NCBI RefSeq assembly: GCF_947623445.1
Contig: NC_135244.1
Location: forward strand, 10,106,001-10,170,000
Direction: 5' to 3'
Source of the DNA: Clavelina lepadiformis
Taxonomy: Eukaryota > Chordata > Ascidiacea > Aplousobranchia > Clavelinidae
DNA length: 64,000 bases
In this document: one piece after another, positions 40,363 to 64,000 of the stretch
Position numbering within the stretch: position 1 is the first letter of the stretch
Layout: every line of letters begins with the position of its first letter
Notes under the pieces: model-generated
Databases searched by the model: none
Told to the model about the DNA's origin: nothing
Seen by the model: the letters and a program-made list of their open reading frames with translations, nothing else
Position numbers and translations under genes: made by a program

Positions 40363-42363
40363 TTACATTTGCCAAAGTCCTCCTATGCAACTTTGGTCTC
40401 TGAAACGTTTTGGAATTGTTACGCTGCTTACAATCGGCCCGCTCGTTTTTAGGTACCATTGAAGTTTTCCATTCTTACCGTCGAAAGCATATAATGTCTT
40501 ATCCGTACCACCGAAATAGAGAGTGCCAAACTTGTCCATTGCCGGACTTGACATAAAATAAGCTTGTCCAATGAATTTCCAAAGCCCGATACCATTCGAC
40601 GCATTCAACGCGAGTATTTCATTTTGTAATGCAACACAAAGAATGTTCCTCTTTTCGGAGAGCAACGGTGTGGACATAACGTCACTTTCGGTGCTTTTGT
40701 TGCTTGCAAAATTCCAAACAACAGCGCGAGAATTTGCAATTTCCAGACACATAACACTACCTGAAGTCGTAACAGCATACAGATATTTTCCATTAGAAGT
40801 AAGAACTGGAGATGATAAAACTCCATCTCCAATGTCAAATGTCCCCAGGGATTTCCCTGTTTGCATATCAATTACGTTTAAATAGTTTTCCACATCTAAC
40901 ACGAACAAATTGTTGCTTTCGTGATCCACCACAGGGGATGCAAATACTGGTCTTCCCATCGTGTGTGACCACATTACGCTTCCGTTGCTTTCGTGCAACA
41001 TGTAAACTGATGGATCTTCTGTTGAAGTTGTTTTTATACATATTATTAATCCTGGTTTATGAATGAAAGGACTAGACCAGATTTCTCCTGGAAAGGGACC
41101 ACTTTTCCATAAAAGTGAAGGCCTACCATCTGCCGTGATATTAAACGCGTAAACCCATCCGTCAATAGTTGCAGCATACAAAATGTCTTTAATTTTATTC
41201 AGTCGAAGAGAAGCCACAATTGCGTCACTAAGCTCTATTTTCCATAAAAGATTTCCGGATTCTGTATGAAACGCATAAAGCTTTGAATCTTCATCAGCAA
41301 AATAAACAGTTTTTTCATCAGCGCTGACAACAGGAGTTGATCCAGCATCCGTGCTTATCGTATAATTCCAAAGTATTGAACCGGTTATAGAATTTACAGC
41401 ATAGAAACATCCAGAAATATCCGAACTAAAATAAATCGAATACACATAAACAGATTTGGATGGTGTATAAACTTCTTTCCAATTAGACTGAGAAACATCT
41501 GCGAGAGAACGATGTTGCCACATGCATTTTATAGAAGGAGAAGAAGATTCTCGAATGAACTTGGACACGACCGTAGTGTGGTTTGCAATATTACGTAAGT
41601 TTTGCGAAGGTGGAAAATTGAAAACATTACTCCATAAATTGACAGATATGATTGGTGGGTCAAACGAAGTTACATGATGCCACCAATGCTCAGGCACGTA
41701 GAGCATATCTCCAGGTTCGACAGTTACTTTGTAGAAATTTATGTCAGCAGCAAGAGGATATTTGTCGAGGTCAACTTGTTCGGGATTGATCGGGGACAAA
41801 CCGGGTTGTACATCGTATAGATCAGCATAAGCCTTGTTTCCTTCTGAATAATTTGCTATTAACCAAGTCTTTTTACCAGATATTTGAAAAAAGAAATTTT
41901 CCGATACATCGTGATGAAATGCAGAGGTAGAATTACGATTTGTGTATAACAATGTGGTCGACTGCGCCCAATCCGTGTACCTTGAGCAGCTGAGTGGCAA
42001 CGGTAGTGGCATATGTTTAAATAAAGTGTTTTCTAAAGGAAATGATGAATCCCAATAAAGCTTTTCATCATAGACCCTTTGTAGAAAATCTGTATAATTA
42101 AGTCTTACTTCGCCCGGGTAATCCTGTGTCCAAATAGGTCTGCTGTATGCTCTACCAGGCATATCGTTTATGTGTGTTTGGAGAAAACTTGGCTTCGCCC
42201 AGTTCGAAAAATACTTATGCCAAGACGGATTGTTAGTTCTAATAAGTACTGGAGTACTACTTCGTATGAAATCTTCATAAAAGGTTTCCGGTGTTGGTTC
42301 ATAGTTTAGAACTTTGATTGATCCCAATGTTGGTTTATGCATACCAAGCTTCAACATTGTCAT
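40363..42363 (-). CDS. JmjC-propeller protein copy B, divergent, no signal peptide
   Basis: Intact frame of 666 residues beginning MTMLKLGMHKP. The JmjC iron ligands are kept: FHHD (H-x-D; the others have FHQD), GKKTW and WWHH. Eight propeller segments follow, but the fifth has lost its Trp (SLGTFD). The last third differs strongly from copies C-F (LEIANSRAVVW, QSCIGGLWQM end), whereas the first two-thirds are nearly identical, giving a sharp mosaic boundary near 40.85 kb. An 8-base deletion just upstream of MLKLG puts the ATG at 42430, which encodes the signal peptide in the sister genes, out of frame. The product would be leaderless, or the gene is decaying. Tail to tail with TGF-beta copy 5. 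Confidence 0.75.
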   Translation of the reverse strand: MTMLKLGMHKPTLGSIKVLNYEPTPETFYEDFIRSSTPVLIRTNNPSWHKYFSNWAKPSFLQTHINDMPGRAYSRPIWTQDYPGEVRLNYTDFLQRVYDEKLYWDSSFPLENTLFKHMPLPLPLSCSRYTDWAQSTTLLYTNRNSTSAFHHDVSENFFFQISGKKTWLIANYSEGNKAYADLYDVQPGLSPINPEQVDLDKYPLAADINFYKVTVEPGDMLYVPEHWWHHVTSFDPPIISVNLWSNVFNFPPSQNLRNIANHTTVVSKFIRESSSPSIKCMWQHRSLADVSQSNWKEVYTPSKSVYVYSIYFSSDISGCFYAVNSITGSILWNYTISTDAGSTPVVSADEKTVYFADEDSKLYAFHTESGNLLWKIELSDAIVASLRLNKIKDILYAATIDGWVYAFNITADGRPSLLWKSGPFPGEIWSSPFIHKPGLIICIKTTSTEDPSVYMLHESNGSVMWSHTMGRPVFASPVVDHESNNLFVLDVENYLNVIDMQTGKSLGTFDIGDGVLSSPVLTSNGKYLYAVTTSGSVMCLEIANSRAVVWNFASNKSTESDVMSTPLLSEKRNILCVALQNEILALNASNGIGLWKFIGQAYFMSSPAMDKFGTLYFGGTDKTLYAFDGKNGKLQWYLKTSGPIVSSVTIPKRFRDQSCIGGLWQM

Positions 42364-42774: not shown

Positions 42775-45770
42775 CAGTGGCGTAGGAGCATATGCTGCCG
42801 CCCCTGGCTTTCGATGAAAATGCCGCCCTATGTAGACTGCAGCAAATTTTGAAGTATAGTTTCATGCTCACGCAATCTTTTCAATAAAAATAATTACAGA
42901 TAATGTGCCGTGTCTCAGAAGTTCTATATTGCTTGAGAAAGAAGCCTCACTGTCTCAGCGTTAAGGCCTAAATTAAAAGACAAAAAATGGAGAACAAATG
43001 TATTAGGCAAATAAAAGATCAATAGCCGCCTCAAAATTGAACTTTTCGAGCTTTCGCCGAAGCAAAATCAGCGATAATATCTTCAAAATCAAGTTTTTGA
43101 ACGTATAATGTCTTTCATGGTAGAACGTAAATAGGACTTTATCATTTTGAGCTTTGAGAAACTCCACTCGCAACTCGCAATTGAAACACCAATGGTAAGA
43201 TAAAGTTTCAGACACAAGCATAAAAATGGTAGGCCTACGTACGTGTCGAATCAAGTAAGTGTGATTTAGCTAACCACTGTAAAACATCAAACGCTGTTGC
43301 ATTACGATCAAACGTGGTTTCACTGCTTCGCACCAGCCTCTTAAATCTGTCAATTTCCACAACTAGCTCCAAAAAGTCCACCTCGTCGTCATAAGTGCTT
43401 CTAAAAGCGTTGGTGAATCCATTGTGACTTTCGCTTTGCAGTAGTGAGTGAGGATTCAAAAATCCAAACATATCATTCAAGTGGTGTATGCAGGTAAACC
43501 TAGTTTCAGCTTCAAGTTTAAATCTGTCCAATGCTTGAAACATGCATCGTCTTACTTCTCCAACACCACTAAGGCCAGCATCTTCTGCGTGTTCGCCAGG
43601 CATTCTCTTTTTTCTGTGAACTCTCCGATCTTCAACTGGAATCTCTAGCTCTGTGCATTTTTTGATCGCTGCATCCACAGAACCTTTAACCAGATTATCT
43701 CGTTCTTCCACTAAAAAGTTGACAAACGCTTTCATCTTGTTAGAGCATTGCGCTAACAGCAATCCTTTTTGCTGCAAGTAAGTTTGAGTATGATTTTAAG
43801 ATTCTCGCAGGATTACTTTCCAAAAACATAAGAAGAAAAAGAAAGAAAAATTCTGAATCGCTTCTAGAATACTATGAGCGTCGCCTCGTGTATTAAGATT
43901 TTCGTTTGGATTACATAGTTCCTCTAGACTCTAGAGCAGGGGTTCCCAACCGGTGGTACGCGTACCACTAGTGGTACGCGGGAGCTTTTCAGGTGGTACG
44001 CGAGCAGCTCTCCGTTGCATGCGATATACAGTATAGTAGTATAACAATTTAATTTTGAGTTGCTAAAATATGCGAACAACACTTTTATTTCTTTCCGTAC
44101 TAAATTCTCTGCACTCAGTAAGCTACTTTTGTCGATCTTGCTCCCTGCTGTCATTGTTATTAATACAATGCTGCTGTGCGAATATTGGATCAAATTAGTT
44201 GTTTTGAAAATAGTGGTACGTGTTGACAATCCGTGGTGGCTAAATGGTACGAGAACATAAAAAGGTTGGGAACCCCTGCTCTAGAGCATCCATAAACTCA
44301 TCAAAATCTGCGTGAAGGGCCTTTACAGCAGCGTGATGTGCGCTCCATCGCGTATCAATCACTCGCTTCAGCGCGATTGGCGCATGCTTTAGAAGGACAT
44401 ATCCCATCTATGAGTAGAGGCAGCAAAAAAACATACTTTGTAAAACAGCGAAGATCTGTCGCTTAAATGCGACGATCCGACGGCATGAACAAGAGTGAAG
44501 ATGCATGAACATGCAAGATTCAGTGTGTGATTTCCACACGGTACGAGTAGTGCTTTTGGATTTATGTTTTTGATTTTTTGCTGAACTCCAGTATGAATTC
44601 CCGACCTAGTAGATGCGTTGTCGTAGCCTTTTCCCCTACACATCATCACATCTAAGTTGTTTAGTTCAAGTTCATCTAGAATAGATTGAGAAATTTCAGC
44701 TGCCGTTTTTCCGCTCAACGGAAAGAAATTCAAAAACAATTCCTTCAGTTGGGCAATATTGTTTTTGATTGTTACATATCTGACTATAAGAGTCATTTGA
44801 TCAGTATGTGATACGTCCGGAGTACTGTCGCACATAATCGCAAAATATTTAGCTTCGCGCACCTTTTCAAGAACGATGTTTTTGAATTTTTTACTGCGAA
44901 GCAAAATAAGCTCATTTTGAATAGTGGGAGAAAGATAAGTAGTTATCATCTTCGTAGAAATACGAATATCAGAAAGGTATTTGATGATTACGGGACTATA
45001 TTGTTCCAGAAGCTTCACGGTCTCTAAAAAATACCCTTGGTTGTTGGATTCAAAAGCTTCACGATGTCCTCGAAAAGGAAGGTTTTGCTTACTTAGAAAT
45101 AATATGACATCAACAACGCTTTCTCAAAATTGCTTTCCACTTTTTTCGCTCTTCATCCATACAAATGGTGATCTATAGCTTCAGGCCAAAAGGCCACATC
45201 ATTGGGAAAATTGTTGACTACTGCAACTGCTTCGTCGTTATTTTCACCTTCGTCTCCATCTATAACTGTCAATGCATAATTGATTTCATTGGTATTACTT
45301 TTGATAGACCCTGTTTCTTGCGTTTCTGCTGATAAGCTGATATTTTAAGTATCTCACTGGAGCTCAGCGTTATTGTCTGGGTTTTCATTTGAATCGTTCT
45401 CTGGTAATGTTAAAGAAACATTTGAACCAGAAGAGGTTACAAATTTTAGCATAGCTCCCTTGTGCTTTTTTAATTCTGCTTCTTTTGTTCTCTCTTCTTT
45501 TTAAAAAAAGCTCCACTCTCTTTGACACGTTTCATTTTCGAGTCTAAATTAACACTTGTATAAATTTAACCACAACCTGTCATTTAAACGTTTACAATCA
45601 ATAACAACTTAAAAGTTTACAATTAAACGTTTAAATGCCCAGGACTGGTTCACCTTCCACAGTTTTCTTGGTCAGCGGGACCAAATTGTAACAAATTAGC
45701 TTGTTTACCGCTCCATTTTTTTAAAACTCTCGTGCTGTGTGCACTGTGCAGCCTCATTTTGCCGCCCCCT
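42775..45770 (-). mobile_element. Decayed hAT transposon, about 3 kb
   Basis: Minus-strand remains of a hAT transposase of the type found in ZMYM-like/DUF4371 proteins. 45018-44389 reads FAIMCDSTPDVSHTDQMTLI, then GNHTLNLAC and FFAASTHRW. 44388-44287 continues, after a frame change, with LKRVIDTRWSAHHAAVKAL. 43777-43235 carries the middle region. 43200-43010 carries a dimerisation segment (KILSLILLRRKLEKFNFEAA). The left boundary begins CAGTGGCGTAG, a common hAT terminus. The right boundary (GCCGCCCCCTAAG) is unclear, and about 130 bases of unit sequence present in C-E are missing, so insertion plus deletion happened. A MITE splits the coding region. Confidence 0.75.
43937..44278. mobile_element. 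hAT-type MITE nested in the hAT remnant
   Basis: 342 bases with perfect 15-base inverted ends CAGGGGTTCCCAACC and an 8-base target duplication CTCTAGAG on both sides (43929-43936, 44279-44286). No coding capacity. The inner part repeats GGTGGTACGCG several times near the left end. It is younger than its host element. Confidence 0.92.
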
Positions 45771-47313: not shown

Positions 47314-48941
47314 TAGGCTTACTATACGTCCCGCTTTAGCCGGGACAGTCCCCCTTTTTAACGTCTTGTCCCGGCGTCCCGATTTATTAGCCAAACGTCC
47401 CGGTTTGGCACTCAGTCAGCCAGCATAGGCACACCGCATAGAAGCCATACACGAACATTATCATGTTCTTATTATTGTTTTTGCTGTGTAGCGTACCGGT
47501 TCTTCTTGAAGAAGAATTTGTGATCTTGTTTGTTATTTATTTCATTGTATGCAATAAAAATGTTATTGTGACGTCATTGTTAGCGGATAATTGGTACAGC
47601 TTGTTACTTTGGCTAGTGGTTTCATTGTTAGCTAGTTCAGCTAATGCTGTGGTAGCTTGTAGAAATATACGGTGTTCTTTTAGTAGATTAGGCTTGCAGG
47701 GCTGTAGGCTTGAGGTCTATTTGAGAGCTCTATTTGAAATTTGTTCATGGGCAGTTGAATTACTTCAATGAGACCATTCTTAAGTTAGAAAGGGAAAACG
47801 CTTGTGCCGTAGATGTGGCGCTTGTTCTGTCAGAGCTAAAGCTAAACTTACTTCAAAAGAAAGAAAACAACTTCATTCCATCTCAAGCAATGACTCTCTT
47901 GGGAAAGCTAGAAGAAGCAAGTGAAGTAAATGTAAAATTATTTTACAAAGAAACAATTAATTTTTACGATAAACGCTTATCGTATCTGGATCTTTATGAT
48001 GATGCTTATAAAGATGTGCTTCCTCATCTTTGGATCGACCTAAATGAAGAAATATCCTGGACGCGAGTGCGTGAATCTGCGGTAAAGATCAATGTCATGT
48101 TTGGGAAGCACTAGGTGATCAACAGCGACTCTCTTTTCGACGAACAAGTACAAGTGAAAAGGCACTTTTCTGAACGTTGTAAGGAAGATAGCTGGCAAAA
48201 TGTATCGTTTGAACAAAAGTGGGTCGCGATGTTCAAAAAATTTGAAGAAAAATGCGTACGCATTTCAAATTCTCAGAAGCTGGTGGAGTTTATATTTTGT
48301 TTACCTGGAACATCCGCACCCGTTGAGAGAATTTTTTCCATCATGAAGAACATGTGGTCTGACAGCAGAAGCAGGATGCTGGAGCAGAACGTGAAAGCCG
48401 TTATTACTTGTAAAGTCGATACTTATTGGTCCTGCTCTGAGTTTTACGAGAATGTAAAATTGAACAATGATTTCTTGAAGAAAGTATTGTGTACAGAAAA
48501 GTACGATTGGGCCAATAAATAAATTTATAAATGCTTGTTGTATACAATGTTTGGTAAACTCAGTGTTGGGAGTAGCATGTCGACTTGGAAACTATGTTCA
48601 ATTCGATATTTCTTCCTTTTGCTGTATCGAAAAGGTGTAAGTTCTACAGAGTGACTACTTCACCGGAAAAAGACTCGCTAACCTTTTATTATTGATAGGC
48701 CGTTAGGTTAGGAGAATAGACACGCAAAAACTTGATTTTAGCTATTTAGGATTTAATTGAAGTTAAATTTGCATTAAAAGGTAGATTTAGGTAATTAGGT
48801 AACTATTTTTCTATATTATTATTTGAAGAAGAATTCGTGATCTTGTTTGTTATTTATTTCATTGTATTCGATAAAAATGTTATCGTGACGTCATATGTCG
48901 AAAGCGTCCCGCTTTGAAGCCACTAAATTATGGTAAGCCTA
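47314..48941 (+). mobile_element. hAT transposon remnant, 1.6 kb
   Basis: Ends TAGGCTTACTATA and, inverted, TAGGCTTACCATA, with target duplication ACTTTATC on both sides; units C-E have uninterrupted or near-uninterrupted target (CTTACTTTATC). Plus-strand frames at 47734-48114 and 48115-48522 are in the same register, separated by one TAG, and encode the C-terminal part of a hAT transposase including LPGTSAPVERIFSIMKNMWS. The N-terminal DNA-binding and catalytic parts are missing. The plus-strand sequence from 47320 contains repeated CGTCCCG words near both ends. Confidence 0.85.
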
Positions 48942-50088: not shown

Positions 50089-52155
50089 TTACATTAATCC
50101 TCCGTAACTACTTTCCTCAACGTATCGGTCGAAGATCGTTACGCTACTTACAATTGGGCCAAGCGATAAAACAGACCATTGCACTGTTCCTTTTAGTCCA
50201 TTTAAGGCATATAGTTTGTTATCCGTACCACCAATATATAAAGTTCCATATTTGTCTAGTCTGGGGCTGGACATAAATTCAGCATCTGCTGAAAACTCCC
50301 AAACTATTTTTCCGTTTTTAGCATCCAAGGCCATTACACGATAGCCAATTGCGACATATAGGAGCTTCCATTTTTCCATAAGTAATGGCGACGAAACTAC
50401 TTCAATATCTGTGCTTTTTTCAACTACAATCTTCCAAATTATATCCAACTTGAGAGCATCTAGACACATGACTTGACCTGACGCCGTTACAATATATAAA
50501 ATATTTCCATTAGAACTAAGAACTGGGGATGATAAAACTCCATCTCCAATGTCAAATGTCCACAGGGATTTCCCTGTTTGCATATCAATTACGTTTAAAT
50601 AGTTCTCCACATCTAACACGAACAAATTGTTGCTTTCGTGATCCACCACAGGGGATGCAAATACTGGTCTTCCCATCGTGTGTGACCACATTACGCTTCC
50701 GTTGCTTTCGTGCAACATGTAAACTGATGGATCTTCTGTTGAAGTTGTTTTTATACATATTATTAATCCTGGTTTATGAATGAAAGGACTAGACCAGATT
50801 TCTCCTGGAAAGGGACCACTTTTCCATAAAAGTGAAGGCCTACCATCTGCCGTGATATTGAAAGCATAGACCCATCCGTCAATAGTCGCAGCATACAAAA
50901 TGTCTTTAATTTTATTCAGTCGAAGAGAAGCCACAATTGCGTCACTAAGCTCTATTTTCCATAAAAGATTTCCGGATTCTGTATGAAACGCATAAAGCTT
51001 TGAATCTTCATCAGCAAAATAAACAGTTTTTTCATCAGCGCTGACAACAGGAGTTGATCCAGCATCCGTGCTTATCGTATAATTCCAAAGTATAGTACCG
51101 GTTATAGAATTTACAGCATAGAAACATCCAGAAATATCCGAACTAAAATAAATCGAATACACATAAGCAGATTTGGATGGTGTATAAAATTCTTTCCAAT
51201 TAGACTGAGAAACATCTGCAAGAGAACGATGTTGCCACATGCATTTTATAGAAAGAGAAGAAGATTCTCGAATGAACTTGGAGATAACCGTAGTGTGGTT
51301 TGCAATATTACGTAAGTTTTGCGAAGGTGGAAAATTGAAAACATTACTCCATAAATTAACAGATATGATTGGTGGGTCAAACGAAGTTACATGATGCCAC
51401 CAATGTTCAGGCACGTAGAGCATATCTCCAGGTTCGACAGTTACTTTGTAGAAATTTATGTCAGCAGCAAGAGGATATTTGTCGAGGTCAACTTGTTCGG
51501 GATTGATCGGTGACAAACCGGGTTGTACATCATATAGATCAGCATAAGCCTTGTTTCCTTCTGAATAATTTGCTATTAACCAAGTCTTTTTACCAGATAT
51601 TTGAAAAAAGAAATTTTCCGCTCCGTCTTGATGAAATGCAGAGGTAGAATTACGATTTGTGTATAACAATGTGGTCGACTGCGCCCAATCCGTGTACCTT
51701 GAGCAGCTGAGTGGCAACGGTAGCGGCATATGTTTAAATAATGAATTGTCCAAGGGAAATGTTGAATCCCAATAAAGCTTTTCATCATAGACCCTTTGTA
51801 GAAAATCTGTAAAATTAAGTCTTACTTCGCCCGGGTAATCCTGTGTCCAAATAGGTCTGCTGTATGCTCTACCAGGCATATCGTTTATGTGTGTTTGGAG
51901 AAAACTTGGCCTCGCCCAGTTCGAAAAATACTTATGCCAAGACGGATTGTTAGTTCTAATAAGTACTGGAGTACTACTTCGTATGAAATCTTCATAAAAG
52001 GTTTCCGGTGTTGGTTCATAGTTTAGAACTTTGATTGATCCCAATGTTGGTTTATGCATACCAAGCTTCAACATTGTTGAAAACTCATGCTTCCTACTCA
52101 CGCTATAGACAATATTCCACAAAATACATAGAGTATGTAAAAGGTTCAGAAACAT
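50089..52155 (-). CDS. Secreted JmjC dioxygenase fused to 8-blade PQQ-like propeller, copy C
   Basis: 688 residues, single exon. Start MFLNLLHTLCILWNIVYSVS is the first ATG in frame (the frame is open further upstream but from a TTG) and forms a signal peptide (1-20). Residues 40-275 are a JmjC/cupin_8 domain: Fe ligands H175-x-D177 and H254 in HWWHHV, and GKKTW for 2-oxoglutarate. Residues 340-680 hold eight propeller segments with closing Trp at 357, 399, 444, 490, 532, 574, 619 and 660, as in PQQ/BamB-type propellers. Sequons (NFT, NST, NYS, NHT, NYT, NIT, NGS) fit a secretory-pathway protein. Expected activity is Fe(II)/2OG hydroxylation; substrate unknown. A TTTGCAG acceptor-like site lies 20 bases before the ATG. 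Confidence 0.88.
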   Translation of the reverse strand: MFLNLLHTLCILWNIVYSVSRKHEFSTMLKLGMHKPTLGSIKVLNYEPTPETFYEDFIRSSTPVLIRTNNPSWHKYFSNWARPSFLQTHINDMPGRAYSRPIWTQDYPGEVRLNFTDFLQRVYDEKLYWDSTFPLDNSLFKHMPLPLPLSCSRYTDWAQSTTLLYTNRNSTSAFHQDGAENFFFQISGKKTWLIANYSEGNKAYADLYDVQPGLSPINPEQVDLDKYPLAADINFYKVTVEPGDMLYVPEHWWHHVTSFDPPIISVNLWSNVFNFPPSQNLRNIANHTTVISKFIRESSSLSIKCMWQHRSLADVSQSNWKEFYTPSKSAYVYSIYFSSDISGCFYAVNSITGTILWNYTISTDAGSTPVVSADEKTVYFADEDSKLYAFHTESGNLLWKIELSDAIVASLRLNKIKDILYAATIDGWVYAFNITADGRPSLLWKSGPFPGEIWSSPFIHKPGLIICIKTTSTEDPSVYMLHESNGSVMWSHTMGRPVFASPVVDHESNNLFVLDVENYLNVIDMQTGKSLWTFDIGDGVLSSPVLSSNGNILYIVTASGQVMCLDALKLDIIWKIVVEKSTDIEVVSSPLLMEKWKLLYVAIGYRVMALDAKNGKIVWEFSADAEFMSSPRLDKYGTLYIGGTDNKLYALNGLKGTVQWSVLSLGPIVSSVTIFDRYVEESSYGGLM

Positions 52156-54351
52156 ATTTGAGCTACTGGAATTCCTGCAAATAAAAGTCGCTTGCTGTCT
52201 TAATACAAAACCAAACAATTCGAATACACAAAAAGGTTTTTGAAATAGTGGTCTACTAGTTTGTTGCTTTATGATTAAAGATGTGTAGGATATTGTTAGA
52301 GATAAATGACATAAATTTGCCAAGAAATATCGTTTCTGATTTCATTTCAATATCTTCTCTCTCTTAAAATGAACGGCAGTTATTAATTATGAAGGTTAAA
52401 ATTTCCTATTTGATATTATACTTTACTTTACTTATATCTATTGCTTGCTAGCTGATCCCTGCCTCATATACCGTACAATATACGTAAAGATATTGATTCC
52501 ACTCATTGCAAGCAGATAATGTGCCGTATCACTAACACAAACAACTCTAATCATAACACTAAAACTGCTTGCATCACAACCACATCGCCGTTAAGGGTTT
52601 TACAAGTTATAGCAAATTACAAAACATATGTTAGAAGTTGACACAAACCAACCGTTGCTACAGTATAAACAGAGCAAAGGCTTCTTAATCACGTACGGTT
52701 ACTGGAAAGCATATGTTATAGGCCTACGGAGTAACTATATAATTTCATGGTACCGAGGTTGTGATGCTCATGCTAAAGATAGACAGCTATATACTGTAGG
52801 AGAATGTGTATGCAAAAAGCCGATTTAGGTTTTTAGGATTTGATTACAGTTGTGACGGTTACTTCACGAGTCATGAGTTGTTTTGGAAATGAAATTCTAT
52901 TTTGGGATCTTGCAATTCAGTTGCAGACCAAGCTTAAATTCTCCTTAATGACGTTTAGATAAATACCTTGCTTGAACTGGTGTGCCACATATAAATACCG
53001 ATGTAATGTTTGCAGTCTTTCCTTTTACTTTTCCCTTTCACTTGTTACTACTGCGCAATGTAACATTCAGTAAGATTTGCCCAAAGGTGTAAGCCTTTGT
53101 GTCTTATAATAAATAAAAATGGGAACTTCATCATTTAGTAATATGCATAGAATGAATTTAAGCAACTAACAGCATTGTCACGCCGTTTGAGAAATGAGAA
53201 CTCATACCATCGAAGCAAAAGTAAAACAAGATATCAATTCAACCGTCCTCGCTTTAATCTGCCATACAGTTATATTTGAATTAGAATGAATATTTAAGTT
53301 AGATTAACAAAAAACTATGAAAAATAAACCAAGTGCGATTCTTTCCGGTTGATTAGTGGCTGCCCATCAAGTTATAGGCATGTTTCCGAGTTAGATAAAA
53401 AACAAGATGTTGCCAAAAACTTTCAAGAGAAAGTCAAGGTATTTTTTGCATAAAGGATTATGGGGTAGGGGAGTCCCGACATTTTAATGTAGGCCTACAT
53501 GCAAGCCGCAATAGAACCCTATAGCTATACCCTATGTATAACAGTGGTAATTCCTTGATTCTTACTTAAAATTACTACATCTAAGCATAGGCCTATTGCG
53601 TTAAACTGCCAAAGGCATCCTGAAATATCGGAATTGTCGACAAATATTTTTCAAGTTTTGCCATGCTGCTCTTTGTGCAGCGAGTTATTTCGTACGTATA
53701 TACTGATGGCTTTTATATGTGTACGACTTTGGGAATATACGTATAAAATGGGCTATATATACTTCAGCCCCTTTAAAAAGTGCTCCTATTCTTACTTTAT
53801 CGTCTTTATCGTATATATGTAACCTATGTTTATATGTGTATCTTAACTTCTCGATAATTTAGGGCAATTTTGAAAGTTAAGGTTAGTTTTGGCACTACCG
53901 TATGTTGGGAAAAACTTCTTAAATTTTAGTTCCCTTGTTACAATAGCAATGAACGTCATTGATACAAAGAAGGGAATGTATATTTTAATTTTTCAAAACG
54001 CGGTTTGTCACATAAAGTCAGTGTATTATTGTACAGTATTTATAGAAATGTTAAAAAACGTGTGATCAAATTATATTTAAACTTTATTATTATGTTTAAG
54101 TTTTAGAGACAAATCGATGTATATAATAGACTAAAGTCTACATACGTATAATTCACTGAATTAAGATAGCCGTATTTTGTATAATGTATAATGCGATGCT
54201 TTTGCATGTAAGCCTTCGGGGAAGTTGATAAAAAGATATGAAATATATCAACAATTGCACAAAATATAAAGCAAACAAATAGTTAGTCTGTAAAACACAA
54301 GCGATAAAACGTTGGTTTTCTGCAATTTTCTCACTCACAATTATATCCTAT
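52156..54351. other. Spacer between JmjC units C and D
   Basis: Contains the upstream region of C (acceptor-like TTTGCAG ending at 52175, minus strand), the recurrent 66-residue plus frame at 52628-52828, the empty sites for the hAT insertions of the B-C spacer (near 53455 and 53795), and the 3' flank of D with its poly(A) signal. Nothing else was recognised. Confidence 0.55.
54083..54088 (-). terminator. Poly(A) signal AATAAA, JmjC copy D
   Basis: Minus-strand AATAAA 264 bases past the stop of copy D, in the conserved context TAATAATAAAGTTTA. Confidence 0.45.
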
Positions 54352-56418
54352 TTACATTAATCCTCCGTAACTACTTTCCTCAACGTATCGATCGAAAATC
54401 GTTACGCTACTTACAATTGGGCCAAGCGATAAAACAGACCATTGCACTGTTCCTTTTAGTCCATTTAAGGCATATAGTTTGTTATCCGTACCACCGATAT
54501 ATAAAGTCCCATATTTGTCTAGTCTGGGGCTGGACATAAATTCAGCATCTGCTGAAAACTCCCAAACTGCTTTTCCGTTTTCAGCATCCAAGGCCATTAC
54601 ACGATAGCCAATTGCAACATATAGGAGCTTCCATTTTTCCGTAAGTAATGGTGACGAAACTACTTCAATATCTGTGCTTTTTTCAACTACAATCTTCCAA
54701 ATTATATCCAACTTGAGAGCATCTAGACACATGACTTGACCTGACGCCGTTACAATATATAAAATGTTTCCATTGGAACTAAGAACTGGGGATGATAAAA
54801 CTCCATCTCCAATGTCAAATGTCCACAGGGATTTCCCTGTTTGCATATCAATTACGTTTAAATAGTTCTCCACATCTAACACGAACAAATTGTTGCTTTC
54901 GTGATCCACCACAGGGGATGCAAATACTGGTCTTCCCATCGTGTGTGACCACATTACGCTTCCGTTGCTTTCGTGCAACATGTAAACTGATGGATCTTCT
55001 GTTGAAGTTGTTTTTATACATATTATTAATCCTGGTTTATGAATGAAAGGACTAGACCAGATTTCTCCTGGAAAGGGACCACTTTTCCATAAAAGTGAAG
55101 GCCTACCATCTGCCGTGATATTAAAAGCGTAAACCCATCCGTCAATAGTTGCAGCATACAAAATGTCTTTAATTTTATTCAGTCGAAGAGAAGCCACAAT
55201 TGCGTCACTAAGCTCTATTTTCCATAAAAGATTTCCGGATTCTGTATGAAACGCATAAAGCTTTGAATCTTCATCAGCAAAATAAACAGTTTTTTCATCA
55301 GCGCTGACAACAGGAGTTGATCCAGCATCCGTGCTTATCGTATAATTCCAAAGTATAGTACCGGTTATAGAATTTACAGCATAGAAACATCCAGAAATAT
55401 CCGCACTAAAATAAATCGAATACACATAAGCAGATTTGGATGGTGTATAAACTTCTTTCCAATTAGACTGAGAAACATCTGCGAGAGAACGATGTTGCCA
55501 CATGCATTTTATAGAAGGAGAAGAAGATTCTCGAATGAACTTGGAGATAACCGTAGTGTGGTTTGCAATATTACGTAAGTTTTGCGAAGGTGGAAAATTG
55601 AAAACATTACTCCATAAATTAACAGATATGATTGGTGGGTCAAACGAAGTTACATGATGCCACCAATGTTCAGGCACGTAGAGCATATCTCCAGGTTCGA
55701 CAGTTACTTTGTAGAAATTTATGTCAGCAGCAAGAGGATATTTGTCGAGGTCAACTTGTTCGGGATTGATCGGTGACAAACCGGGTTGTACATCATATAG
55801 ATCAGCATAAGCCTTGTTTCCTTCTGAATAATTTGCTATTAACCAAGTCTTTTTACCAGATATTTGAAAAAAGAAATTTTCCGCTCCGTCTTGATGAAAT
55901 GCAGAGGTAGAATTACGATTTGTGTATAACAATGTGGTCGACTGCGCCCAATCCGTGTACCTTGAGCAGCTGAGTGGCAACGGTAGCGGCATATGCTTAA
56001 ATAAAGTGTTTTCTAAAGGAAATGTTGAATCCCAATAAAGCTTTTCATCATAGACCCTTTGTAGAAAATCTGTAAAATTAAGTCTCACTTCGCCCGGGTA
56101 ATCCTGTGTCCAAATAGGTCTGCTGTATGCTCTACCAGGCATATCGTTTATGTGTGTTTGGAGAAAACTTGGCCTCGCCCAGTTCGAAAAATACCTATGC
56201 CAAGACGGATTGTTAGTTCTAATAAGTACTGGAGTACTACTTCGTATGAAATCTTCATAAAAGGCCTCCGGTGTTGGTTCATAGTTTAGAACTTTGATTG
56301 ATCCCAATGTTGGTTTATGCATACCAAGCTTCAACATTGTTGAAAACTCATGCTTCATACTCACGCTATAGACAATATTCCACAAAATACATAGAGTGTA
56401 TAAAAGGTTCAGAAACAT
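54352..56418 (-). CDS. Secreted JmjC-propeller protein, copy D
   Basis: 688 residues, intronless, same architecture as copy C: signal peptide (MFLNLLYTLCILWNIVYSVS), JmjC domain with FHQD, GKKTW and WWHH intact, and eight propeller Trp motifs. It differs from C at scattered sites, for example SADISGCF for SSDISGCF, RYFSNW for KYFSNW, and LLTEKW and AENGKAVW for LLMEKW and AKNGKIVW. It keeps DVENYLN and GDGVLSS like C. The acceptor-like TTTGCAG upstream is preserved. A functional gene by every criterion visible; substrate unknown. Confidence 0.88.
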   Translation of the reverse strand: MFLNLLYTLCILWNIVYSVSMKHEFSTMLKLGMHKPTLGSIKVLNYEPTPEAFYEDFIRSSTPVLIRTNNPSWHRYFSNWARPSFLQTHINDMPGRAYSRPIWTQDYPGEVRLNFTDFLQRVYDEKLYWDSTFPLENTLFKHMPLPLPLSCSRYTDWAQSTTLLYTNRNSTSAFHQDGAENFFFQISGKKTWLIANYSEGNKAYADLYDVQPGLSPINPEQVDLDKYPLAADINFYKVTVEPGDMLYVPEHWWHHVTSFDPPIISVNLWSNVFNFPPSQNLRNIANHTTVISKFIRESSSPSIKCMWQHRSLADVSQSNWKEVYTPSKSAYVYSIYFSADISGCFYAVNSITGTILWNYTISTDAGSTPVVSADEKTVYFADEDSKLYAFHTESGNLLWKIELSDAIVASLRLNKIKDILYAATIDGWVYAFNITADGRPSLLWKSGPFPGEIWSSPFIHKPGLIICIKTTSTEDPSVYMLHESNGSVMWSHTMGRPVFASPVVDHESNNLFVLDVENYLNVIDMQTGKSLWTFDIGDGVLSSPVLSSNGNILYIVTASGQVMCLDALKLDIIWKIVVEKSTDIEVVSSPLLTEKWKLLYVAIGYRVMALDAENGKAVWEFSADAEFMSSPRLDKYGTLYIGGTDNKLYALNGLKGTVQWSVLSLGPIVSSVTIFDRYVEESSYGGLM

Positions 56419-58660
56419 ATTTGAGCTACTGGAATTCCTGCAAATAAAAGTCGCTTGCTGTCTTAATACAGAACCAAACAATTCGAATACACAAAAAGGT
56501 TTTTGAAATAGTGGTCTACTAGTTTGTTGCTTTATGATTAAAAATGTGTAGGATATTGTTAGAGATAAATGACATAAATTTGCCAAGAAATATCGTTTCT
56601 GATTTCATTTCAATATCTTCTCTCTCTTAAAATGAACAGCAGTTATTAATTATGAAGGTTAAAATTTCCTATTTGATATTATACTTCACTTTACTTATAT
56701 TTATTGCTTGCTAGCTGATCCCTGCCTCATATACCGTACAATATACGTAAAGCTATTCATTCCACTCATTGCAAGCAGATAATGTGCCGTATCACTAACA
56801 CAAACAACTCTAATCATAACACTAAAACTGCTTGCATCACAACCACATCGCCGTTAAGGGTTTTATAAGTTATAGCAAAATACAAAACATATGTTAGAAG
56901 TTGACACAAACCAACCGTTGCTACGGTATAAACAGAGCAAAGGCTTCTTAATAATCACGTACGGTTACTGGAAAGCATATGTTATACGGAGTAACTATAT
57001 AATTTCATGGTACAGAGGTGGTGATGCTCATGCTAAAGATAGACAGCTATATACTGTAGGAGAATGTGTATGCAAAAATCAGATTTAAGGTTTTTAGGAT
57101 TTGATTACAGTTGTGACGGTTACGTCACGAGTCATGACTCATGAGCTGTTTTGGAAATGCTGAAATTCTATTTTGGGATCTTGCAATTCAGTTGCAGACC
57201 AAGCTTAAATTCTCCTTAATGACGTTCAGATAATTACCTTGCTTGAACTGGTGGGCCACATATAAATACCGATGTAATGTTTGCAGTCTTTCTTTTCACT
57301 TTTCCCTTTCACTGGTTACTACTGCGCAATGCAACATTCAGTAAGATTTGCTCAAAGGTGTAAGCCTTTGTGTCTGATAATAAATAAAAAGGGAACTTTA
57401 TCATTTAGTAATATGCATAGAATGAATTTAAGCAACTAACAGCATTGTCACGCCGTTTAAGAAATGAAAACTCATACCATCGAGCCAAAAGTAAAACAAG
57501 GTATCAATTCAACCGTCCTCGCTTTTATCTGCCATACAGTTATATTTGAATTAAAATGAATATTTAAGTTAGATTAACAAGAAACTATGAAAAATAAATC
57601 AAGTGCGATTCTTTCCGGTTGATTAGTGGCTGCCCATCAAGTTATAGGCCTGTTTCCGAATTAGATAAAAAAACAAGATGTTGTCAAAAACTTTCAAGAG
57701 AAAGTCAAGGTATCTTTTGCATAAAGGATTATGGGGTAGGGGAGTCCCGACATTTTAATGTAGGCCTACATGCAAGCCGCAATAAAACCCTATAGCTATA
57801 CCCTATGTATAACAGTGGTAATTCCTTGATTCTTACTTAAAATTACTACATCTAAACATAGGCCCACAGCGTTGAACTGTCAAAGGCATCCTGAAATATC
57901 GGAATAATCGACAAATATTTTTCAAGTTTTGCCATGCTGCTCTTTGTGCAGCGATTTATTTCGGTACGTATATACTGATGGCTTTTATATGTGTACGCCT
58001 TTGGGAATATAGGTATACAATGGGCTATATAAGTTTATATCCTTCAGCCCCTTTAAAAAAGTACTCCTATTTTTACTTTATCATATATATGTAACCTATG
58101 TTTAAATGTGTATCTTAATTGTTTATAGTTAACCATTTATGGTTAACTTCGATAGTTTAGGAAAATTTTGAAAGTTAAGGTTAGTTTTGGCACTACCGTA
58201 TGTTGGGAAAAACTTCTTAAATTTTAGTTCCCTTGTTACAATAGCAATGAACGTCATTGATACAAAGAAGAGAATGTATATTTTAATTTTTCAAAACGCG
58301 GTTTGTCACATAAAGTCAGTGTATTATTGTACAGTATTTATAGAAATGTTAAAAAACGTGTGATCAAATTATATTTAAACTTTATTATTATGTTTAAGTT
58401 TTAGAGACAAATCAATGTATATAATAGAGTTTAAATAGACTATAGTCTACATACGTATAATTCACTGAATTAAAATAGCCGTTTTTTGTATAATGTATAA
58501 TGCGTTGCTTTTGCATGCAAGCCTTCGGGGAAGTTGATAAAAAGATATGAAATATATCAACAATTGCACAAAATATAAAGCAAACAAATAGTTAGTCTGT
58601 AAAACACAAGCGATAAAACGTTGGTTTTCTGCAATTTTCTCACTCACAATTATATCCTAT
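56419..58660. other. Spacer between JmjC units D and E
   Basis: Same organisation as the C-D spacer. The plus-strand small frame is at 56891-57088 with one extra codon (LIITYG). The 3' flank of E carries its poly(A) signal. No further gene was recognised. Confidence 0.55.
58381..58386 (-). terminator. Poly(A) signal AATAAA, JmjC copy E
   Basis: Minus-strand AATAAA 275 bases past the stop of copy E, same context as in C, D and F. Confidence 0.45.
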
Positions 58661-60727
58661 TTACATTAATCCTCCGTAACTACTTTCCTCAACGTATCGA
58701 TCGAAAATCGTTACGCTACTTACAATTGGGCCAAGCGATAAAACAGACCATTGCACTGTCCCTTTTAGTCCATTTAAGGCATATAGTTTGTTATCCGTAC
58801 CACCGATATATAAAGTCCCATATTTGTCTAGTCTGGGGCTGGACATAAATTCAGCATCTGCTGAAAACTCCCAAACTGCTTTTCCGTTTTCAGCATCCAA
58901 GGCCATTACACGATAGCCAATTGCAACATATAGGAGCTTCCATTTTTCCGTAAGTAATGGTGACGAAACTACTTCAATATCTGTGCTTTTTTCAACTACA
59001 ATCTTCCAAATTATATCCAACTTGAGAGCATCTAGACACATGACTTGACCTGACGCCGTTACAATATATAAAATATTTCCATTAGAACTAAGAACTGGGG
59101 ATGATAAAACTTCATCTCCAATATCAAATGTCCACAGGGATTTCCCTGTTTGCATATCAATTACGTTTAAATAGTTCCCCATATCTAACACAAACAAATT
59201 GTTGCTTTCGTGATCCACCACAGGGGATGCAAATACTGGTCTTCCCATCGTGTGTGACCACATTACGCTTCCGTTGCTTTCGTGCAACATGTAAACTGAT
59301 GGATCTTCTGTTGAAGTTGTTTTTATACATATTATTAATCCTGGTTTATGAATGAAAGGACTAGACCAGATTTCTCCTGGAAAGGGACCACTTTTCCATA
59401 AAAGTGAAGGCCTACCATCTGCCGTGATATTGAAAGCATAGACCCATCCGTCAATAGTCGCAGCATACAAAATGTCTTTAATTTTATTCAGTCGAAGAGA
59501 AGCCACAATTGCGTCACTAAGCTCTATTTTCCATAAAAGATTTCCGGATTCTGTATGAAACGCATAAAGCTTTGAATCTTCATCAGCAAAATAAACAGTT
59601 TTTTCATCAGCGCTGACAACAGGAGTTGATCCAGCATCCGTGCTTATCGTATAATTCCAAAGTATAGTACCGGTTATAGAATTTACAGCATAGAAACATC
59701 CAGAAATATCCGAACTAAAATAAATCGAATACACATAAGCAGATTTGGATGGTGTATAAACTTCTTTCCAATTAGACTGAGAAACATCTGCGAGAGAACG
59801 ATGTTGCCACATGCATTTTATAGAAAGAGAAGAAGATTCTCGAATGAACTTGGAGATAACCGTAGTGTGGTTTGCAATATTACGTAAGTTTTGCGAAGGT
59901 GGAAAATTGAAAACATTACTCCATAAATTAACAGATATGATTGGTGGGTCAAACGAAGTTACATGATGCCACCAATGTTCAGGCACGTAGAGCATATCTC
60001 CAGGTTCGACAGTTACTTTGTAGAAATTTATGTCAGCAGCAAGAGGATATTTGTCGAGGTCAACTTGTTCGGGATTGATCGGTGACAAACCGGGTTGTAC
60101 ATCATATAGATCAGCATAAGCCTTGTTTCCTTCTGAATAATTTGCTATTAACCAAGTCTTTTTACCAGATATTTGAAAAAAGAAATTTTCCGCTCCGTCT
60201 TGATGAAATGCAGAGGTAGAATTACGATTTGTGTATAACAATGTGGTCGACTGCGCCCAATCCGTGTACCTTGAGCAGCTGAGTGGCAACGGTAGCGGCA
60301 TATGCTTAAATAAAGTGTTTTCTAAAGGAAATGTTGAATCCCAATAAAGCTTTTCATCATAGACCCTTTGTAGAAAATCTGTAAAATTAAGTCTCACTTC
60401 GCCCGGGTAATCCTGTGTCCAAATAGGTCTGCTGTATGCTCTACCAGGCATATCGTTTATGTGTGTTTGGAGAAAACTTGGCCTCGCCCAGTTCGAAAAA
60501 TACCTATGCCAAGACGGATTGTTAGTTCTAATAAGTACTGGAGTACTACTTCGTATGAAATCTTCATAAAAGGCCTCCGGTGTTGGTTCATAGTTTAGAA
60601 CTTTGATTGATCCCAATGTTGGTTTATGCATACCAAGCTTCAACATTGTTGAAAACTCATGCTTCATACTCACGCTATAGACAATATTCCACAAAATACA
60701 TAGAGTGTGTAAAAGGTTCAGAAACAT
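58661..60727 (-). CDS. Secreted JmjC-propeller protein, copy E
   Basis: 688 residues, intronless, same domains and catalytic residues as copies C and D (FHQD, GKKTW, WWHH; eight blade Trp residues). It carries D-type residues late in the propeller (LLTEKW, AENGKAVW) but its own changes in blade 5 (LDMGNYLN for LDVENYLN, GDEVLSS for GDGVLSS), which copy F shares. The signal peptide is intact. The distance to copy D, stop to stop, is 4309 bases, typical of this array. Confidence 0.88.
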   Translation of the reverse strand: MFLNLLHTLCILWNIVYSVSMKHEFSTMLKLGMHKPTLGSIKVLNYEPTPEAFYEDFIRSSTPVLIRTNNPSWHRYFSNWARPSFLQTHINDMPGRAYSRPIWTQDYPGEVRLNFTDFLQRVYDEKLYWDSTFPLENTLFKHMPLPLPLSCSRYTDWAQSTTLLYTNRNSTSAFHQDGAENFFFQISGKKTWLIANYSEGNKAYADLYDVQPGLSPINPEQVDLDKYPLAADINFYKVTVEPGDMLYVPEHWWHHVTSFDPPIISVNLWSNVFNFPPSQNLRNIANHTTVISKFIRESSSLSIKCMWQHRSLADVSQSNWKEVYTPSKSAYVYSIYFSSDISGCFYAVNSITGTILWNYTISTDAGSTPVVSADEKTVYFADEDSKLYAFHTESGNLLWKIELSDAIVASLRLNKIKDILYAATIDGWVYAFNITADGRPSLLWKSGPFPGEIWSSPFIHKPGLIICIKTTSTEDPSVYMLHESNGSVMWSHTMGRPVFASPVVDHESNNLFVLDMGNYLNVIDMQTGKSLWTFDIGDEVLSSPVLSSNGNILYIVTASGQVMCLDALKLDIIWKIVVEKSTDIEVVSSPLLTEKWKLLYVAIGYRVMALDAENGKAVWEFSADAEFMSSPRLDKYGTLYIGGTDNKLYALNGLKGTVQWSVLSLGPIVSSVTIFDRYVEESSYGGLM

Positions 60728-62935
60728 ATTTGAGCTACTGGAATTCCTGCAAATAAAAGTCGCTTGCTGTCTTAATACAGAACCAAACAATTCGAATACA
60801 CAAAAAGGTTTTTGAAATAGTGGTCTACTAGTTTGTTGCTTTATGATTAAAGATGTGTAGGATATTGTTAGAGATAAATGACATAAATTTGCCAAGAAAT
60901 ATCGTTTCTGATTTCATTTCAATATCTTCTCTCTCTTAAAATGAACAGCAGTTATTAATTATGAAGGTTAAAATTTCCTATTTGATATTATACTTTACTT
61001 TACTTATATCTATTGCTTGCTAGCTGATCCCTGCCTCATATACCGTACAATATACGTAAAGCTATTGATTCCACTCATTGCAAGCAGATAATGTGCCGTA
61101 TCACTAACACAAACAACTCTAATCATAACACTAAAACTGCTTGCATCACAACCACATCGCCGTTAAGGGTTTTACAAGTTATAGCAAATTACAAAACATA
61201 TGTTAGAAGTTGACACAAACCAACCGTTGCTACAGTATAAACAGAGAAAAGGCTTCTTAATCACGTACGGTTACTGGAAAGCATATGTTATACGGAGTAA
61301 CTATATAATTTCATGGTACAGAGGTTGTGATGCTCATGCTAAAGATAGGCAGCTATATACTGTAGGAGAATGTGTATGCAAAAAGCAGATTTAAGGTTTT
61401 TAGGATTTGATTACAGTTGTGACGGTTACGTCACGAGTCATGACTCATGAGTTGTTTTGGAAATGCTGAAATTCTATTTTGGGATCTTGCAATTCAGTTG
61501 CTGACCAAGCTTAAATTCTCCTTAATGACGTTCAGATAATTTCCTTGCTTGAACTGGTGGGCCACATATAAATACCGATGTAATGTTTGCAGTCTTTCCT
61601 TTTACTTTTCCCTTTCACTGGTTACTACTGCACAATGTAACATTCAGTAAGATTTGCTCAAAGGTGCAAGCCTTTGTGTCTTATAATAAATAAAAAAGGA
61701 ACTTTATCATTTAGTAATATGCATAGAATGAATTTAAGCAACTAACAGCATTGTCACGCCGTTTAAGAAATGAGAACTCATACCATCGAAGCAAAAGTAA
61801 AACAAGGTATCCATTCAACCGTCCTCGCTTTTATCTGCCATACAGTTATATTTGAATTAAAATGAATATTTAAGTTAGATTAACAAGAAACTACGAAAAA
61901 TAAATCAAGTGCGATTTTTCCGGTTGATTAGTGGCTGCCCATCAAGTTATAGGCCTGTTTCCGAATTAGATAAAAAAACAAGATGTTGTCAAAAGCTTTC
62001 AAGAGAAAGTCAAGGTATCTTTTGCATAAAGGATTATGGTGTAGGGGGTTCCGACATTTTAATATAGGCCTACATGCACGCCGCAATAGAACCCTATAGC
62101 TATACCCTATGCATAACAGTGGCAATTCCTTGATTCTTACTACATCTAAACATAGGCCTATAGCGTTTAACTGTCAAAGGCATCCTGAAATATCGGAATT
62201 GTCGACAAATATTTTTCAAGTTTTGCCATGCTGCTCTTTGTGCAGCGATTTATTTCGGTACGTATATACTGATGGCTTTTATATGTGTACGCCTTTGGGA
62301 ATATAGGTATACAATGGGCTATATAAGTATATATCCTTCAGCCCCTTTAAAAAAGTACTCCTATTCTTACTTTATCATATATATGTAACCCATGTTTATA
62401 TGTGTATCTTAATTGTTTATAGTTAACCATTTATGGTTAACTTCGATAGTTTAGGAAAATTTTGAAAGTTAAGGTTAGTTTTAGCACTACCGTATGTTGG
62501 AAAAAACTTCTCAAATTTTAGTTCCCTTGTTACAATAGCAGTGAACGTCATTGATACAAAGAAGAGAATGTATATTTTAATTTTTCAAAACGCGTTTTGT
62601 CACATAAAGTCAGTGTATTATTGTACAGTATTTATAGAAATGTTAAAAAACGTGTGATCAAATTATATTTAAACTTTATTATTATGTTTAACTTTTAGAG
62701 ACAAATCGATGTATATAATAGACTAAAGTCTACATACGTATAATTCACTGAATTAAGATAGCCGTTTTTTGTATAATGCGCTGCTTTTGCATGCAGGCCT
62801 TCGGGGAAGTTGATAAAAAGATATGAAATATATCAACAATGGCACAAAATATAAAGCAAACAAATAGTTAGTCTGTAAACACATGCGATAAAACGCTGGT
62901 TTTCTGCAATTATTTTACTCACAATTAATTCCTAT
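60728..62935. other. Spacer between JmjC units E and F
   Basis: Same organisation as the other spacers, with the small plus frame at 61200-61394. The last ~60 bases before the F stop are of the C type (TTATTTTACTCACAATTAATTCC), not the D/E type (TTTTCTCACTCACAATTATATCC). Confidence 0.55.
62675..62680 (-). terminator. Poly(A) signal AATAAA, JmjC copy F
   Basis: Minus-strand AATAAA 256 bases past the stop of copy F. Confidence 0.45.
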
Positions 62936-64000
62936 TTACATTAATCCTCCGTAACTACTTTCCTCAACGTATCGATCGAAAATCGTTACGCTACTTACAA
63001 TTGGGCCAAGCGATAAAACAGACCATTGCACTGTTCCTTTTAGTCCATTTAAGGCATATAGTTTGTTATCCGTACCACCGATATATAAAGTTCCATATTT
63101 GTCTAGTCTGGGGCTGGACATAAATTCAGCATCTGCTGAAAACTCCCAAACTATTTTTCCGTTTTTAGCATCCAAGGCCATTACACGATAGCCAATTGCG
63201 ACATATAGGAGCTTCCATTTTTCCATAAGTAATGGCGACGAAACTACTTCAATATCTGTGCTTTTTTCAACTACAATCTTCCAAATTATATCCAACTTGA
63301 GAGCATCTAGACACATGACTTGACCTGACGCCGTTACAATATATAAAATATTTCCATTAGAACTAAGAACTGGGGATGATAAAACTTCATCTCCAATATC
63401 AAATGTCCACAGGGATTTCCCTGTTTGCATATCAATTACGTTTAAATAGTTCCCCATATCTAACACAAACAAATTGTTGCTTTCGTGATCCACCACAGGG
63501 GATGCAAATACTGGTCTTCCCATCGTGTGTGACCACATTACGCTTCCGTTGCTTTCGTGCAACATGTAAACTGATGGATCTTCTGTTGAAGTTGTTTTTA
63601 TACATATTATTAATCCTGGTTTATGAATGAAAGGACTAGACCAGATTTCTCCTGGAAAGGGACCACTTTTCCATAAAAGTGAAGGCCTACCATCTGCCGT
63701 GATATTGAAAGCATAGACCCATCCGTCAATAGTCGCAGCATACAAAATGTCTTTAATTTTATTCAGTCGAAGAGAAGCCACAATTGCGTCACTAAGCTCT
63801 ATTTTCCATAAAAGATTTCCGGATTCTGTATGAAACGCATAAAGCTTTGAATCTTCATCAGCAAAATAAACAGTTTTTTCATCAGCGCTGACAACAGGAG
63901 TTGATCCAGCATCCGTGCTTATCGTATAATTCCAAAGTATAGTACCGGTTATAGAATTTACAGCATAGAAACATCCAGAAATATCCGAACTAAAATAAAT
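62936..64000 (-). CDS. Secreted JmjC-propeller protein, copy F (5' end outside window)
   Basis: The last 354 codons, covering the eight propeller segments; the frame is open to the window edge, so the JmjC domain and start lie beyond 64000. The segment is a mosaic: blade 5 is like E (LDMGNYLN, GDEVLSS), while blades 6-8 and the 3' flank are like C (LLMEKW, AKNGKIVW, C-type flank). All closing Trp residues are present and no stop interrupts it. Confidence 0.85.
   Translation of the reverse strand: MYFSSDISGCFYAVNSITGTILWNYTISTDAGSTPVVSADEKTVYFADEDSKLYAFHTESGNLLWKIELSDAIVASLRLNKIKDILYAATIDGWVYAFNITADGRPSLLWKSGPFPGEIWSSPFIHKPGLIICIKTTSTEDPSVYMLHESNGSVMWSHTMGRPVFASPVVDHESNNLFVLDMGNYLNVIDMQTGKSLWTFDIGDEVLSSPVLSSNGNILYIVTASGQVMCLDALKLDIIWKIVVEKSTDIEVVSSPLLMEKWKLLYVAIGYRVMALDAKNGKIVWEFSADAEFMSSPRLDKYGTLYIGGTDNKLYALNGLKGTVQWSVLSLGPIVSSVTIFDRYVEESSYGGLM

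Follow-up and report, generated by a model that had tools for sequence, protein, structure and literature searches.

A tandem array of Clavelina lepadiformis genes joining a JmjC domain to a PQQ-like propeller behind a putative secretory leader

We analysed a 64,000-nucleotide stretch of the genome of the ascidian Clavelina lepadiformis (contig C5, NC_135244.1; C5:10106001-10170000; hereafter the window), whose minus strand carries a tandem array of genes; the complete members encode a hydrophobic leader, a JmjC/Cupin_8 domain and an eight-tryptophan, pyrroloquinoline quinone (PQQ)-like propeller. Genome searches covered the whole assembly (209.06 Mb, 95 contigs). The open-frame list of the window contains three full-length intronless frames at 50089-52323, 54352-56586 and 58661-60895, and a fourth at 62936-64000, which is cut by the window end and encodes a protein nearly identical to the other three. 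The three complete frames are listed from a TTG; the first ATG lies 56 codons later (at 52155, 56418 and 60727), opens the hydrophobic leader and gives a product of 688 residues. Copies 1 (50089-52155), 2 (54352-56418) and 3 (58661-60727) are accordingly complete genes, recognised from their open frames and Pfam matches. Copy 3 serves as the reference, and residues are numbered on its 688-residue product, counted from the first ATG. The array repeat unit is about 4.3 kb.

The window holds the 3' half (propeller) of copy 4 on the minus strand (62936-64000). The genome search showed this copy to be full-length and intact in the chromosome, with its ATG at C5:10171002, past the window end. An earlier interpretation made from the letters alone, here called the sequence-only reading, had counted at least four tandem repeats, which is correct, since three are complete in the window and the fourth is complete in the genome. 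It did not mention three further copies. Copy 5 lies outside the window at C5:10173235-10175313 and has a different leader; a stop reported for it by the genome search sits before the ATG, so that copies 1-5 all have coding frames without stops. Copy 6 (40363-42363, minus strand) retains an open JmjC and propeller frame with HHD and the later His; a broken joint puts the leader in another frame, and the final three to four blades have diverged strongly. Copy 7 (30144-30782, minus strand) is limited to a 3' fragment, whose propeller end shows the divergence seen in copy 6. PMC10884593 describes a C. lepadiformis assembly built from high-fidelity (HiFi) reads with a quality value (QV) of 67.4. 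Provided that the assembly used here is that one, such accuracy, together with coding differences of 0.4-1.6% among copies 1-4, makes it unlikely that the array is an artefact.

The JmjC part of the protein was recognised by two Pfam families. In the three complete frames Cupin_8 matched at E-values of 2.3e-28 to 2.7e-28 and JmjC at about 5e-6, both above the curated cut-offs (100-102 bits against 27.4, and 27-28 bits against 24, respectively), in four of the five proteins scanned; the fifth was the propeller half cut by the window, which has no JmjC part. The domain spans residues 51-269 of copy 3 (59921-60577, minus strand; 107-325 of the TTG frame). In a HMMER alignment with JMJD5, for which residue roles were taken from passages of PMC9712658, H175 and D177 of the H175-Q-D177 motif (60197-60205) and H254 (59966-59968) line up with the iron ligands, and K190 (60158-60160) lines up with the lysine that holds the C5-carboxylate of 2-oxoglutarate (2OG), lying 15 residues after H175 as K336 does after H321 in JMJD5. 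These four residues are conserved in all six aligned copies, in agreement with the complete HxD...H ligand set proposed by the sequence-only reading. When eight Cupin_8 proteins from viral contigs were added, H175, D177 and K190 remained invariant in 13 of 13 rows, the His and Asp of the motif being invariant in both alignments; H254 was likewise invariant, but by construction, as the contigs had been retrieved with a pattern containing it. The eight proteins come from 11 viral-contig Cupin_8 frames (L083, L091 and L089, a repeat of L087, were left out), three of which entered the tree described below. These 11 frames, L083-L093 from IMG/VR contigs, are Cupin_8/JmjC genes in their own right, several of about 325 residues, with HQD or HHD ligands. 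An alcohol side chain three residues before the first ligand (S172) is present in the array copies, and Y128 was assigned by eye as the tyrosine of the 2OG site and was not aligned by HMMER. In the predicted structure the strands of the JmjC region have middling predicted local distance difference test (pLDDT) values, and fold searches were dominated by propeller matches.

The propeller occupies residues 333-688 of copy 3 (58664-59731, minus strand). Beta-prop_ACSF4 (E-values of 5.5e-55 to 2.5e-54) and PQQ_2 (1.5e-32 to 5.3e-32) matched the three complete frames above the curated cut-offs, and all five proteins scanned scored 185-215 bits against a cut-off of 133 and 92-119 bits against 27.6, respectively. 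Pfam places both JmjC and the PQQ-like propeller within a single intronless frame, as had been proposed. The Trp motif occurs eight times, at residues 357, 399, 444, 490, 532, 574, 619 and 660, with intervals of 42, 45, 46, 42, 42, 45 and 41 residues, the count and the 41-46 residue spacing originally noted; all eight are kept in each of copies 1-4, and copy 6 has Gly in place of the fifth Trp. A fold search with the predicted structure matched this region to PQQ-like propeller folds. It is joined to the JmjC domain by a linker of about 60 residues predicted with low confidence. The likeness to PQQ and BamB proteins drawn by the sequence-only reading holds for the kind of propeller. It does not extend to the specific families: the two copies scanned fell far below the cut-offs of the NCBIfam models for PQQ-dependent dehydrogenases (TIGR03075, 60.9 and 48.6 bits against 480) and BamB (TIGR03300, 103 and 97.1 against 285.2; NF008351, 82.3 and 69.1 against 423). 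The propeller is thus PQQ-like in kind, with no evidence for quinone chemistry. No AMP-binding family of the type found in AASDH (ACSF4) was matched by Pfam at E-values up to 1 in the five proteins. BamB, YxaL and AASDH share the propeller of W-motif repeats with the array protein but lack its JmjC domain; BamB is, in addition, a lipoprotein of an outer-membrane machine, unlike the array protein, and AASDH carries AMP-binding and carrier domains, neither of which was found here.

Upstream of the JmjC domain, copies 1-4 share the leader MFLNLLHTLCILWNIVYSVS, near which one or two differences occur, and copy 5 has the leader MSSANNLLMLACLVSSLSCA, preceded by DNA unrelated to that of copies 1-4. 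Both leaders join the common part of the protein at MLKLG, both are hydrophobic (nine-residue hydropathy means of 2.0 and 2.8, respectively), and the leader frame is open in all five copies. That two unrelated leaders are found on one protein is the best evidence for its destination, and suggests the secretory pathway. In copy 3 the leader (residues 1-20; 60668-60727, minus strand) contains no Lys or Arg, and the general cleavage-site rule points to a possible cut after S20, with Ser at -3 and -1; the protein has seven sequons and no further membrane stretch. The signal peptide of the sequence-only reading therefore survives as a hydrophobic leader running from the first ATG, called from hydropathy, with a candidate cleavage site. 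Copies 1-4 have a pyrimidine-rich tract followed by GCAG 19 bases before the ATG (60747-60750, minus strand, in copy 3), which by its motif is a candidate 3' splice or trans-splice acceptor. A donor-like GTGAGT ends their leader (60668-60673 in copy 3); no ordinary intron fits it, and a former leader exon may have left it behind. The genome search gave no sign that either leader had been taken from a known exon: for copies 1-4, the leader region is matched elsewhere in the genome only over a dispersed repeat further upstream, and for copy 5 the sole full match is the region itself, with eight partial matches that end before the leader.

The array genes are under purifying selection. The ratio of nonsynonymous to synonymous divergence (dN/dS) is 0.17-0.27 in all six pairs of copies 1-4, 0.37-0.39 against copy 5 (four pairs) and 0.34-0.40 against copy 6 (five pairs). 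Variable sites among copies 1-4 number 8, 7 and 25 at the first, second and third codon positions, and intergenic divergence exceeds coding divergence in all six pairs. Tandem amplification with the key residues kept, another element of the original proposal, is borne out by the iron ligands in six of six copies and by the eight Trp of copies 1-4. Identity along the copies is patchy: sliding windows of copy 5 against copy 3 give 73-88% in two JmjC patches and 96-100% in the propeller, and those of copy 6 against copy 3 are mostly at 96-100% and fall to 57-70% over the final part of the coding frame. This patchwork appears best explained by gene conversion or unequal crossing-over.

Several repeats were seen between and beside the genes. 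The intergenic unit contains a dispersed repeat of about 285 bp (61416-61699, minus strand), with one upstream of each of copies 1-4; it also occurs on the eight other numbered chromosomes at 83-91% identity, and 35 of its 41 scored matches lie outside the array. Intergenic pieces of older units are scattered between 45771 and 49541. Beside decayed array pieces, hAT-type transposase fragments were found at 44389-45018 and 48115-48522 (Pfam DUF4371, below cut-off, and Dimer_Tnp_hAT). A 57-bp repeat at 38167-39065 (region 37992-39494; 15.8 copies, 95% matches) lacks stops in several frames of either strand, and its 500-residue frame matched no Pfam family at E-values up to 0.01.

A profile search of the genome returned 25 Cupin_8 matches, among which, judging by motifs, we presume JMJD7, TYW5, KDM8, HSPBAP1, FIH, JMJD4 and JMJD8 to be represented. 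One of them (C2:3743913-3744491), likely the JMJD8 orthologue, reads FHFHGPG, with His replacing the iron-binding Asp as in human JMJD8. Four other JmjC genes, at C6:15880245, C7:13045006, C8:5560403 and C3:284083, all have HxD; we call them the secreted-type JmjC group. They have Cupin_8/JmjC with HxD in common with the array but are split into exons, unlike it. In the genes at C6:15880245 and C3:284083 a hydrophobic leader frame directly precedes the JmjC exons, and GMHKPTLGS of the array looks, by eye, like the GHLQPLGS that follows the C6 leader. The gene at C7:13045006 also has an EF-hand-like stretch scoring under the Pfam cut-offs. In phmmer searches the best matches of the array JmjC part were three of these four genes (68.7, 52.8 and 48.1 bits), followed by HSPBAP1-like (43.9 bits) and TYW5-like (43.3 bits) sequences, several of the entries being partial. 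A FastTree phylogeny of 15 sequences placed the array beside all four secreted-type genes with a local support of 0.868; of the JmjC loci of this genome it omits L022 and the JMJD4-like L027, and its FIH-, HSPBAP1- and KDM8-like entries, as well as L019, the fourth gene of the group, are partial pieces. Among the best candidates scored in the genome search, no propeller match fell at the four secreted-type genes; the remaining propeller matches were in a split gene resembling AASDH (C1:5.717-5.720 Mb) and in further frames. As the nearest JmjC relatives are split and two have visible leaders, secretion was probably inherited and the propeller is probably the newly added part.

Animal JmjC hydroxylases have been studied chiefly in the nucleus and cytosol, where JMJD5 and FIH, the latter an asparaginyl hydroxylase, reside. 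Both share with the array protein the iron triad and, counted from the first His, a lysine at +15 and an alcohol side chain at -3 (S318 in JMJD5, corresponding to S172); neither has a leader or a propeller, whereas the array protein has both. The literature describes JMJD5/KDM8 as an arginyl C-3 hydroxylase (PMC5862942) and JMJD7 as hydroxylating lysine at C-3. Human JMJD8 is presented in PMC5684140 as a JmjC protein of the ER (endoplasmic reticulum) lumen with no other domain, in which His replaces the iron-binding Asp. The array protein resembles JMJD8 in being a JmjC protein of the secretory pathway (by prediction) and differs from it in keeping D177 in six of six copies. The earlier view that a secretory JmjC protein is unusual is therefore weakened by JMJD8 and by the other JmjC genes of this genome, two of them with leader frames; what stays unusual is the fusion to a propeller.

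We looked for this fusion outside the genome. Five stretches of viral contigs fitted the pattern and none was confirmed as a relative. In contigs of prokaryotic genomes none of 43 stretches was confirmed, and the one hit among 18 in a second scan was an acidobacterial propeller piece; a whole-genome search of its assembly gave no match. Across 297 acidobacterial genomes, scored for up to three candidates each, 134 had matches, and JmjC and propeller never shared a frame among the matches listed. None of 73 matching plasmid records aligned to 80% of the query at a single location; the ten listed all fall in or around the propeller, at 24-29% identity to bacterial and archaeal proteins. When the plasmid propellers were aligned with that of the array, no segment was conserved strongly enough to serve as a scan pattern. 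No description of a JmjC/Cupin_8 and PQQ propeller fusion was found among the open-licence PMC papers searched. The parts are familiar and the combination is unusual, as far as viral contigs, prokaryotic genomes, plasmids and literature, and not animal proteomes, were covered.

Taken together, these observations favour, with some confidence, a reading in which the product of the array is an Fe(II)/2OG protein hydroxylase of the secretory pathway with a propeller that docks a substrate or partner. The leader would carry the protein into the ER, and the JmjC domain would act in the ER or Golgi on a secreted protein or peptide, hydroxylating an arginine, lysine or asparagine/aspartate side chain in the manner of JMJD5, JMJD7 and FIH. 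Other lumenal hydroxylases obtain iron and 2OG in these compartments. The propeller would bind the substrate or partner and so set specificity, and tandem amplification with gene conversion would raise and homogenise dose. Most likely, such a gene would have arisen when a member of the secreted-type JmjC group of this genome was joined to a PQQ-like propeller.

Several points weigh against this reading. The putative signal peptide was called from hydropathy, copy 3 has no ER-retention tail, and the donor-like GTGAGT inside the leader of copies 1-4, with a candidate acceptor just upstream, makes an additional upstream exon possible. The JmjC part of the predicted structure is middling, with ten-residue pLDDT means of about 49-77 over residues 170-260. 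The docking role is inferred solely from the kind of propeller. As to ancestry, the alignment behind the tree had 107 columns and contained exon pieces joined by hand; L019 scored 16.3 bits against copy 3 from a short piece, lower than KDM8-, JMJD7-, FIH- and JMJD8-like pieces.

Among the alternatives, the one that fares best accepts an active JmjC domain and takes the propeller not for a substrate dock but for a trafficking tag or for a structural or oligomerisation module of the BamB scaffold type. Titles of the fold matches show that PQQ-like propellers occur in BamB complexes, and the long low-confidence linker permits loose tethering; against such a role there is nothing specific beyond the conservation of the propeller, which among copies 1-4 equals that of the JmjC part. 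We regard it as possible but rather unlikely. An appreciably less probable alternative is a cytosolic or nuclear protein like JMJD5 or FIH, in which the leader would be 5' untranslated region or spliced out and translation would start at the inner ATG, M28 (MLKLGMHK). The GTGAGT, the acceptor-like CAG 19 bases before the ATG, and copy 6, which has lost the leader frame yet is open from the inner ATG, are consistent with this; however, only 27 bases separate GTGAGT from the M28 codon, too few for an ordinary intron, two unrelated hydrophobic leaders meet at the same joint in copies whose leader frame is open in five of five cases, and the best JmjC match of the array has a leader frame itself.

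That the array is a decaying set of duplicates with no present function is improbable. Broken or partial copies 6 and 7, the older-unit pieces and the nearby transposon debris are what decay would leave, but copies 1-5 lack stops, their dN/dS values stay low (also against copy 5), and intergenic differences exceed coding ones. A recent bacterial origin by horizontal transfer would account for the intronless frame and the bacterial-looking propeller with its plasmid matches. It is very improbable, as JmjC and propeller shared no frame among the acidobacterial matches listed, no plasmid record with a match reached 80% of the query at one location, the tree places the JmjC part with animal genes that are split, the array lies amid host repeats inside a 24.6-Mb chromosome, and a retrocopy of an animal gene accounts equally well for the absent introns.

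For the preferred reading, a secretory hydroxylase with a docking propeller, a substrate class is suggested by analogy with Styela clava, a different species from another order. PMC8659048 describes its styelin D as a secreted ascidian peptide with hydroxylated arginine and lysine. That styelin D-like hydroxylated peptides might be the substrate class of the array enzyme is speculation. We know of no enzyme assigned to hydroxylation in ascidian secreted peptides, no search having been aimed at one. The specific proposal of a tunicate-made extracellular or ER arginyl/lysyl hydroxylase, built from a secreted JmjC domain and a PQQ-like propeller, with tunic proteins or plentiful secreted peptides as its targets, is a doubtful one, offered tentatively.

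If true, it would make JmjC hydroxylation directed by a propeller a new way of modifying secretory peptides after translation. JMJD8, the lumenal JmjC protein that we found described, lost the iron-binding Asp, whereas the array keeps all catalytic residues; its JmjC domain apparently enters the secretory pathway, is joined to a large putative binding module, and has been kept by selection and amplified. The array is thus a testable candidate for the enzymes that hydroxylate basic residues of ascidian secreted peptides, and it illustrates the gain of a new domain by a JmjC group in an invertebrate chordate.

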